A stretch of DNA of 64,000 bases from Fibrobacter sp. UWH6 (GTDB lineage: Bacteria > Fibrobacterota > Fibrobacteria > Fibrobacterales > Fibrobacteraceae): positions 62,001 to 126,000 of the forward strand of contig NZ_FRAX01000003.1 of NCBI RefSeq assembly GCF_900142465.1, given 5' to 3'. The translations under genes and the position numbers were made by a program. The notes below the pieces were generated by a model. That model had not been told where the DNA came from and did not search any database. It saw only the letters and a list, made by a program, of their open reading frames with translations. Below, one piece after another: positions 27,347 to 31,066 of the stretch. How positions within the stretch are numbered: the first letter of the stretch is position 1; each line of letters begins with the position of its first letter.

Positions 27347-27367
27347 ATTATCCTCGCAATGGGCGGT

Positions 27368-27437
27368 GAGATATGAGTTATGAGTTATGAGGTATGAGGT
27401 ATGAGGTATGAGGTGTGAGGTGTAAGGTGTGAGTTAT
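27368..27437. repeat. Ten heptanucleotide tandem units (GAGNTRT type)
   Basis: Ten consecutive 7-mers: GAGATAT, GAGTTAT twice, GAGGTAT three times, GAGGTGT twice, AAGGTGT, GAGTTAT. A second heptad tract in a different sequence (TTTAACC, TTTTCGC, TTTAGGC, CGTTCGC, TCTAGGT) follows at 27449-27483, then hairpins GGTAGC-GGA-GCTACC and CCTCGC/GCGAGG. Confidence 0.9.
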
Positions 27438-28035: not shown

Positions 28036-28353
28036 ATGAAGCGTCTAATTTTGATTTCCATGATTGCAGCAGCCTGCCTTACCGCATGTGGCGAGGAAGC
28101 CAGCGAAACCGCCAGCAAGTACGCCAACAAGGCCAAAAAGGCAGCTACCGAAGCTGCAGATGTAGTCAAGGATAAAGCAAGCGATGCAGCAGATGCTGCA
28201 AAAGACAAGGCTAGCGACGTAGCAGATGCAGCCAAGGACAAAGCTAGTGATGCAGCCGACGTCGCTAAATCTACAGCCAAGGACGCCGCAAACGCCGCCC
28301 TAGACAAGGCCGAAGACGCTATCAAGGCCGCCAAGGAAAAACTGAATCAGTAA
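28036..28353 (+). CDS. Small lipoprotein with 11-residue amphipathic repeats
   Basis: 105 aa. The lipobox LTACG places the lipid-bearing Cys at about residue 18. The mature part is an uninterrupted amphipathic helix made of 11-residue repeats: DKASDAADAAK, DKASDVADAAK, DKASDAADVAK and looser copies before and after, ending KEKLNQ. The Ala/Lys/Asp 11-mer pattern is that of LEA group 3 and apolipoprotein-like helices. It could lie along a membrane or form a coiled coil near the cell wall. Ribosome site GAGGAA. It is a single gene, convergent with the asparaginase gene. Confidence 0.82.
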   Translation: MKRLILISMIAAACLTACGEEASETASKYANKAKKAATEAADVVKDKASDAADAAKDKASDVADAAKDKASDAADVAKSTAKDAANAALDKAEDAIKAAKEKLNQ

Positions 28354-29366: not shown

Positions 29367-30350
29367 TCAGACCTCATTCAAAAGCTGTTGGGCAGTCACT
29401 CCATAAAATTTCTGCAGGGCTTCATCGGCGCTCATGGAGCTTAGGCTCTTGATAAAATCACGGAACCGTGTAAAGTCAGCATTCCTTTTCAGCATTCCCT
29501 CCACCATTTTCTGGGAATACCAGTAAAGCTTTACCGCCTCATCGGTACGGGTCTCTCCAACAAAGGGAGCCGACAGCACATCCAAGGAAGGTTCACTTCC
29601 GGCGGGTCTAGCCACGTCATTGCGGCTTGCATCTACAACCTGGGCAATACCTTCGTTGGCCCAGGTGGGAATTTTTACGCGGACCATGGCCCTAATAAAG
29701 GCGTGAGTCAATTCATGAAACAGCATGGGGCGATAGACTTCACGATACTGCATGACATTTACAGGAATACGAAGCTTTCCGTCAAACAGGGCTCCTGCCC
29801 AAGCAGGACGACCACCAACACCGCCATGATCTTCTGATTCATAAAGCACCACCTGCAACTTATTTTCGGGGCGGAAATCAAACAGGTGGCAAAGGGAATC
29901 GTAAGCGACTTCCAACACCGAGAGGGCTTCCAGCACATCGCTGCGAGAGGGGCGTCCATCAAATTCCAGTCGGAAATGGGCGGAACGTTCCAGGCCCAAT
30001 GTTTCCATTTCTCGAATGAGCATCTTGGATTTTTCGGTTAGATATTCCAGATCCCCATTGCTGTAACCCAGTCCAGAAATGTAGGCGATGCAGTCTTCGT
30101 AGCGTTCCTGTTCCAGCAGCACACCCGCCATATGCAATTGCAAGTTGCGATCTTCGGGAGTTTCAGAAAGCAGCACTTTCAAATCCTTCTCGGCGCACTT
30201 CCAATCCCCGGATTCCAGACAGGCGTTGGTCTCTTCAACCAGGGCATTATGCTTTTCGATGGCGGCATTTTCTGCCAGGCGAACACGTAGCTGATGGCCT
30301 CCATATAAAAAGGCCACCACGACCACAACAATCAAGCCCAAGCGTTTCAT
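29367..30350 (-). CDS. Membrane-anchored gluzincin-type zinc peptidase
   Basis: 327 aa. One N-terminal membrane anchor (about 3-18) precedes a TPR-like helical segment (CLESGDWKCAEKDLKVLLSE, about 44-90). The peptidase domain has HELTHAF (His212, Glu213, His216) and the downstream glutamate in TWANEGIAQ (Glu233), the zinc site of the peptidase MA superfamily. The catalytic domain should be periplasmic. Its start overlaps the DUF4416 stop by 4 nt and it ends 2 nt before the asparaginase gene, so the three form one operon. Confidence 0.87.
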   Translation of the reverse strand: MKRLGLIVVVVVAFLYGGHQLRVRLAENAAIEKHNALVEETNACLESGDWKCAEKDLKVLLSETPEDRNLQLHMAGVLLEQERYEDCIAYISGLGYSNGDLEYLTEKSKMLIREMETLGLERSAHFRLEFDGRPSRSDVLEALSVLEVAYDSLCHLFDFRPENKLQVVLYESEDHGGVGGRPAWAGALFDGKLRIPVNVMQYREVYRPMLFHELTHAFIRAMVRVKIPTWANEGIAQVVDASRNDVARPAGSEPSLDVLSAPFVGETRTDEAVKLYWYSQKMVEGMLKRNADFTRFRDFIKSLSSMSADEALQKFYGVTAQQLLNEV

Positions 30351-31066
30351 AGGCGGAAAGAACCCTCACTACCAGCCGCTTTAGCCTTTTTATACTTTTG
30401 CCCCTCCGGCGCCAAAGTGGGCGGCTCGGTCATGTCGGATTGCAAGCAATCCGCCGCGACTCTCGACTTTTTATACTTTTGCCCCTCCGGTGCCAAAGTA
30501 GGCGGCTCGGTCATGTCGGATTGCAAGCAATCCGCCGCGACTCTCGACTTTTTATACTTTTCTCTTATCAACTGAAGGTCGTGTTGGTAGGGGTTGCGGG
30601 TAAAGTCTTCGAAGGCCCAGGCTGTAGGGTGAAAAACGCCCTTGGCATAGGTCAGCAGCATATCCAGCCACACGCCCTTCCCGGCGTAAAGTTTAAAAGG
30701 TCCGCGCTTGTAGCTAGGCAACACCACCTTATCCAAATCCATATAGCCGATGTCGATATTCACATGGCGGTGATCTGGATTCTCGCTGTTGGCAGTAGTC
30801 AATTCCAGTGCGTTGCTCCGCTCCTTTTCATCGGCGATGGTCTCAGGCGAAATGCATTTCTCAAAAGAAACCACTCCACGGTAAAGACCATCCCCCATTT
30901 CAGGGGTATAATAATTGGTCCTGTCAAAGGCAAAAAGTTTTCCCTTATGCCGAATCGGCCCCCAAGTCTTTTCGAGGAGTTCAATCACAGAGGGATCCCA
31001 TTCAGCACCCTTCTGCAAAACAAAGGCTATCAGCTGAGCCTGTTCACTAAATTGAGAAGCTTTCAT
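30347..31066 (-). CDS. DUF4416 family protein with tandem-duplicated C-terminus
   Basis: 239 aa. Residues about 1-170 match the DUF4416 family (unknown function): FDRTNYYTPEMGDGLYRGVV, then a conserved NIDIGYMDLDKVVLPS and LDMLLTYAKGVFHP. Normal members end soon after YRERY-like motifs, here REKYKK. This one then carries two identical 27-residue copies beginning KYKKSRVAADCLQSDMTEPP, followed by KYKKAKAAGSEGSFRL. The tail is encoded by an 81-bp direct repeat (see repeat entry). It lies 7 nt from the metzincin gene upstream and overlaps the peptidase gene downstream. Confidence 0.85.
   Translation of the reverse strand: MKASQFSEQAQLIAFVLQKGAEWDPSVIELLEKTWGPIRHKGKLFAFDRTNYYTPEMGDGLYRGVVSFEKCISPETIADEKERSNALELTTANSENPDHRHVNIDIGYMDLDKVVLPSYKRGPFKLYAGKGVWLDMLLTYAKGVFHPTAWAFEDFTRNPYQHDLQLIREKYKKSRVAADCLQSDMTEPPTLAPEGQKYKKSRVAADCLQSDMTEPPTLAPEGQKYKKAKAAGSEGSFRL
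30387..30561 (-). repeat. 81-bp in-frame tandem repeat with internal palindrome
   Basis: Two full copies with a period of exactly 81 bp plus the start of a third (TTTTTATACTTTT at 30387, 30468 and 30549). The copies differ at two positions, both silent in the encoded protein (CCC/CCT for Pro and GCG/GCA for Ala). Each contains the palindrome GGATTGCAAGCAATCC. The unit adds 27 codons without changing the frame. Confidence 0.93.

Follow-up and report, generated by a model that had tools for sequence, protein, structure and literature searches.

Fibrobacter is a rumen fiber degrader, and the genome of Fibrobacter sp. UWH6 raises the question of why a protein gene should end in a palindromic repeat that is read in frame. 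We refer to the whole stretch of DNA analyzed, 64,000 nt, as the window. On its minus strand, a 239-codon open frame matches Pfam DUF4416 at residues 9-171 (E 2.2e-38), and an in-frame tandem array begins in the tail region after about residue 174, which places the repeat outside the DUF4416 domain (Table 1).

Table 1. Features of the DUF4416 gene and its tandem array (positions are those of the window; HP1 and HP2 are the variable palindromic stem and the small second hairpin)
Feature	Position	Strand	Basis
DUF4416 protein gene, 239 codons; stop overlaps ATG of next gene (ATGA)	30347..31066	-	ORF list, Pfam
Tandem array, period 81 bp, two full units and a 14-bp start of a third	30386..30561	-	TRF
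Element core, first in gene, 57.8 bits to model R1	30503..30550	-	covariance model
Element core, second in gene, 57.8 bits to model R1	30422..30469	-	covariance model
Variable palindromic stem HP1, first core	30518..30533	.	sequence; HP1 covariation across copies
Variable palindromic stem HP1, second core	30437..30452	.	sequence
Stretch T (AAAAGTATAAAAAG, codes KYKK); KFKK or RYKK here in element-free orthologs	30548..30561	-	sequence, ortholog comparison
T, second copy	30467..30480	-	sequence
T, third copy, then tail AKAAGSEGSFRL	30386..30399	-	sequence, ORF
Stretch partly complementary to T, with HP2, first unit	30481..30505	-	sequence, fold
Stretch partly complementary to T, with HP2, second unit	30400..30424	-	sequence, fold

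The first-pass annotation had described a direct repeat of period 81 bp in the DUF4416 gene, with two full copies and the start of a third, and TRF recovered this array (2.2 copies, 97% matches, score 338, the top of eight rows in the window). The interval given there, 30387-30561, was right at its end and began one base inside the array, which starts at 30386. On the coding strand, three copies of the 14-nt stretch T follow one another every 81 nt, separated by 67 nt, and each unit carries the same palindrome, GGATTGCAAGCAATCC, as its HP1 stem. The units differ by two substitutions, both at third codon positions and both synonymous, as had been noted (30410 C / 30491 T and 30419 G / 30500 A), and these fall in the T-complementary/HP2 stretches. 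The chance that two changes in the 81-bp unit are both synonymous is 0.048 for random changes and 0.119 for random transitions, so the pattern supports selection only weakly. The window holds other tandem arrays at 28143-28256 (period 33, 3.5 copies) and 27367-27437 (period 7, TGAGGTA, 10.1 copies). A second, distant DUF4416 homolog (29% identity) lies elsewhere in the genome (G000:C4:257661-258143), and such a second match was present in most genus genomes searched.

A 96-base query matched the UWH6 genome and 18 of 40 other genomes, all of the same genus, with most matches covering query positions 36-84. What the copies share is a 44-51-nt core, in which the conserved blocks CGAGnGTCGC and ATGACCGAG flank a palindromic stem whose sequence varies between most copies without loss of pairing. 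The first-pass annotation had proposed looking for the 81-bp unit in other genes; the core is indeed dispersed, but other loci share mainly this core and not the 81-bp unit. With a free gap between the blocks, the exact pattern was found in 73/80 genus genomes and the reversed pattern in 0/80. A covariance model, R1, detected 34 copies in the UWH6 genome at E<0.01 and 39 at E<=10, of which the window contains the two known cores and one chance-level match (E 0.44). We then scanned the window's phylum alone with R1 (E<=0.01, stricter filters, at most 36 candidates scored per genome) and found the element in 92/167 genomes: 80/80 in the genus, 12/31 in the rest of the family (five other genera), and 0/56 outside Fibrobacteraceae. 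Given the filters and the limit on candidates, these counts are minimum values, and distant copies that score weakly may have escaped detection. So far, the element appears restricted to Fibrobacteraceae. None of the titles and abstract openings listed describes it, nor do the passages of PMC3079729 that were consulted; an earlier mention is possible, for example in Text S8 (S85 insertion sequences).

Beyond the core, the anatomy comprises an outer stem T/T', the asymmetric blocks CGAGnGTCGCG / CATGACCGAG, the hypervariable palindromic stem, and often a second hairpin; in some copies, the T of the outer stem appears to be target sequence. This second hairpin is often GGACGCCnnnGGCGTCC (L002, L053, L155, L182). 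This recurrence suggests that HP2 and the outer stem, and not HP1, define subfamilies.

The stem that is hypervariable yet palindromic is the unusual part of the element. We compared the pairing of each stem arm with its own partner and with swapped partners for 94 distinct centers, drawn from among the matches listed for the exact pattern together with further copies. Own-partner pairing was 0.80 versus 0.43 for 20-nt centers (n = 43), 0.79 versus 0.55 for 16-nt centers (n = 39), and 0.45 versus 0.31 for 23-nt centers (n = 7). In an alignment of 38 copies, made without structure and tested against a structure drawn from the same sequences, 93.5% of cells were paired compared to 78.2% in shuffles. 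Double changes occurred in 81 cells versus 25.7 in shuffles (0/500) and affected 9/15 pairs, while further pair types numbered 23 versus 19.8 (27/500); sliding the stem partners abolished the pairing signal. Across 82 centers, the 578 stem positions comprised 545 Watson-Crick, 4 G.T and 8 A.C pairs, and the rarity of G.T fits a palindrome at the DNA level better than a one-strand RNA.

The outer stem pairs as well. An exact complementary T:T' run of at least 6 was present in 14/24 representatives versus 7.1% of swapped pairs (87 of 91 pattern matches were kept, with near-end copies and L044 and L091:1534, which we judged false, removed). Looser rules, applied to palindromic centers alone and hence with palindromy imposed, gave a run in 17/28 versus 8.9%. 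Fold z-scores of four examples were -1.24 (window), -3.53, -1.93 and -3.28, indicating that the window copy alone is not exceptionally stable. Among the 38 cores, 19, 18 and 33 are open in the three sense frames and 35, 34 and 31 in the antisense frames.

Copy number at the DUF4416 site varies among orthologs, at 0, 1 or 2. We surveyed 65 of 75 loci, leaving out the 10 most distant and allowing one mismatch per block, and found no core in 62/65. The sole other genome with an intact in-frame array is Horse_feces15, whose DUF4416 ortholog (L276) contains two in-frame cores; L279 has two diverged cores with a stop in the first, and L280 has one core and a partial second. L277 (KFKKAQFKKASAAGK) may hold an element remnant. 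Neither of the outcomes that the first-pass annotation had named as refuting its reading, namely the same two copies throughout the genus or a unit found nowhere else, was observed.

The Horse_feces15 and UWH6 loci have the same 81-nt period, and in both the stop overlaps the start codon of the following gene as ATGA. A UWH6 unit differs from the first Horse_feces15 unit at 19/81 positions, whereas copies within a genome differ at only 2/81 (UWH6) and 3/43 (Horse_feces15), which points to either concerted evolution or two duplications. Since two tandem cores occupy the same place in both genomes, the array either predates their split and was later homogenized or was duplicated twice. The description of the array as recently duplicated is therefore upheld only in part. 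The two Horse_feces15 copies have GAATGC/GCATTC and GAAAGC/GCTTTC, respectively: both sides of one pair changed and pairing was kept. This change replaces two amino acids in a peptide that already differs from that of UWH6, suggesting that the structure, rather than the peptide, is kept.

The element is also read in frame in other proteins. In an SNF2 protein of genome G004, it occupies the linker between the helicase parts (Pfam 6-292 and 371-484), and among the orthologous loci obtained from 20/26 genomes it is present in 3/20 and absent in 17/20. A glyoxalase-like protein of genome G014 also contains it. Of 25 glyoxalase-like loci, 20 could be compared, the other five having failed to match the anchors: L231 carries a sense copy, L237 (G005) an opposite-orientation copy that is likewise in frame, and L232-L234 diverged copies, while several orthologs have a short loop at the site and others have other inserts. 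Two further elements lie in a 377-codon open frame of G004 without a Pfam match. Judged by sequence, the element is tolerated in frame within conserved protein genes. The first-pass comparison with the Rickettsia elements, as a palindromic repeat tolerated in coding sequence, is thus borne out by a core that is found genus-wide and in frame in other proteins.

Sites with and without the element occur within single genomes. The UWH6 genome contains partial carB and thrS copies with elements, plus element-free copies of the same stretches, and in G011 one carB copy has two insertions and another has none. In carB the net inserts measure 67 bp (three sites), 75 bp and 92 bp; the two in thrS measure 79 and 80 bp. 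Exact direct repeats at seven junctions were TT, TTTCCAG, TTT, none, none, AAA and A, with a substitution interrupting the left match of the 92-bp insert. With lengths of 0-7 bp and no fixed value, they do not establish a classical target duplication. Two sites, the 92-bp insert and the second one in thrS, repeat the neighboring target sequence (AGTAC and AGCTTG, respectively) two bases in from the left end, so that T looks target-derived there; elsewhere among the compared sites, T belongs to the insert. The element-free target at TTTCCAG reads like the element end of the leftmost insert, making microhomology possible. We set aside programmed bypassing or splicing of the interrupted carB, because the filled copy is partial and element-free copies, which run to contig ends, exist in the same genome; for thrS, an element-free copy spans the compared region.

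Genomes G004 and G014 each carry four near-identical members of one subfamily (the eight loci may include the same place in both). L085 is 95-98% identical to the other seven over 131-162 bp, and the remainder of the 2-kb loci is unmatched, so larger units than the core have spread.

With dispersal, covariation, presence versus absence at matching sites and in-frame tolerance all observed directly, we consider it highly probable that the DUF4416 array is a dispersed hairpin element, belonging to a non-autonomous mobile family resembling the Rickettsia palindromic elements (RPEs). This element would have entered the 3' end of the gene downstream of the KYKK codons, and a tandem duplication would then have produced 81-bp units, each carrying the 14-bp target stretch T. 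The frame stayed open, perhaps under selection for translation that continues as far as the ATGA shared with the following gene. We infer that the folded form is what is recognized and maintained, with no selected function in DUF4416. Counting against this explanation are that we found no mover, that the direct repeats at the insertion sites span just 0-7 bp, and that no element-free DUF4416 allele from the window's species is known.

MITEs such as the Correia or ERIC elements are non-autonomous and have an inverted-repeat structure. Our element shares both properties, but its direct repeats have no fixed length, its outer stems are variable, and we identified no transposase to go with it. As described in PMC2229807, RPEs are small dispersed palindromes of 105-146 bp with terminal inverted repeats, intergenic or fused in frame in conserved protein genes, and neutral or slightly detrimental. 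Our element is likewise dispersed (34 copies in UWH6) and in frame in conserved genes while absent from orthologs; it differs in its 44-51-nt core, with fixed blocks around a hypervariable stem, and in its host, from another phylum. In its in-frame tolerance it behaves like RPEs, a likeness of kind and not of compared sequence. PMC3733652 describes GTAG/CGTC REPs and REPINs as multicopy short stem-loops, many downstream of coding regions and some inside genes; 'Fibrobacter' occurs 0 times in its main text. The Fibrobacter element also forms many short stem-loops, many past genes and some within, but has no GTAG in its conserved columns and no consistent Y1 partner.

We identified no mover for the element. 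One candidate is a Y1 (RAYT-like, IS200-type) transposase acting on a REP-like element, a view otherwise compatible with the mobile-element explanation. The small hairpins scattered between and inside genes would suit such a mover. Outside the genus, Y1 genes are present in 10/12 family genomes with the element versus 7/19 without (Fisher p 0.024, uncorrected), and the element lies at 3/30 Y1 loci. However, 27/30 Y1 loci are element-free and the tetranucleotide GTAG is absent from the invariant columns of the core alignment. Y1 transposases were found in 44/111 family and 27/80 genus genomes; the 53/80 genus genomes lacking them all carry the element, and median copy numbers in the genus are alike (27 with Y1, 21 without, p 0.41, with at most 36 counted per genome). 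We therefore regard a Y1 mover as unlikely. A reverse transcriptase partner was rejected: RVT_1 is present in 31/111 family genomes (one below cut-off) and missing from 80/111, and outside the genus it occurs in 5/12 genomes with the element versus 8/19 without, showing no association.

Selection might instead act on an RNA at mRNA 3' ends (stability, processing or termination), read through in DUF4416, with dispersal reflecting selection at many genes. A conserved asymmetric interior with variable helices is seen in structured RNAs. Of 91 matches (a count that includes L044 and L091:1534, later judged false), 35 lie within 80 nt downstream of an ORF stop on their own strand, versus 10 with an opposite-strand stop downstream, and several copies begin 1-5 nt past a stop codon, which could mean a role in mRNA. 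Yet this bias can arise from insertions being tolerated at gene 3' ends; moreover, the consensus TAAGG can itself give a stop, in one orientation only, and the copies are not independent. G.T pairs are nearly absent, numbering 4 against 8 A.C, so that no strand is favored, and copies are found within genes in either orientation as well as within partial copies of genes. Rfam covariance models run on eight loci gave three matches, all under gathering scores (best E 0.056), a result of little weight in either direction. Overall, an RNA function seems improbable to us. Far less credible still is a repeat specific to DUF4416 and kept by peptide selection; the first-pass annotation had suggested such selection while noting that two changes are too few to prove it. 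The synonymous differences speak for it, but a pair of random transitions has about a 12% chance of being silent at both sites, the Horse_feces15 array has the same structure with another peptide, and no core was found in most orthologs examined, although it occurs at many other loci. The dispersed copies and the Horse_feces15 stem change thus weigh against the strong form of this reading.

At certain sites, relatives carry altogether different stems. Among 41 copy pairs with alike flanks, 29 have different centers (some by one base), with both flanks alike in 6/29; only palindromic centers were taken, which imposes palindromy on this comparison. In the glyoxalase-like gene, direct alignment of L110, L232 and L233 revealed three unrelated stems between flanks that are both 85-90% alike. 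Differing stems can have arisen by template switching, by several insertions into the same site, or by conversion of an entire stem from another copy. A tentative and rather doubtful idea is that variable stems are rewritten as whole palindromes at fixed sites, with blocks and flanks unchanged, the outer stem being a fold-back copy of the target (T, hairpin, T', second hairpin, T). The element would then be a mobile or self-renewing palindrome driven by replication template switching or gene conversion between copies, without a dedicated transposase. Such fold-back copying would explain T, T' and the second T.

Fibrobacter thus possesses a palindrome family of its own that can code for protein, and a single genome supplies both occupied and unoccupied natural sites. 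The stems offer a direct test of how palindromes persist while their sequence turns over. For annotation, an inserted repeat may account for a C-terminal tail or a linker in these genomes.

Some copies lie near sites matching TGTTTCACGTGAAACA, which we take to be a parS-like motif. In a sample biased toward loci fetched via the glyoxalase-like gene, which holds such a site, and counted without a chance level, 24/164 distinct copies are within 100 nt of one and 30/76 distinct sites have a copy nearby (L006, L007, L009, L080, L109, L110, L232-L234, L237-L239, L241, L243, L244, L251, L253, L255). Separately, 3' fragments of carB, thrS and valS in UWH6 (L154:5880-7090, L155 for thrS, L156 for valS) appear behind a similar junction, ..TATAGCCCGACC hairpin GGGGAACGCCC.., part of which recurs in other genomes (query 1-98). 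These fragments resemble the ends of genes placed next to a site of integration or recombination.
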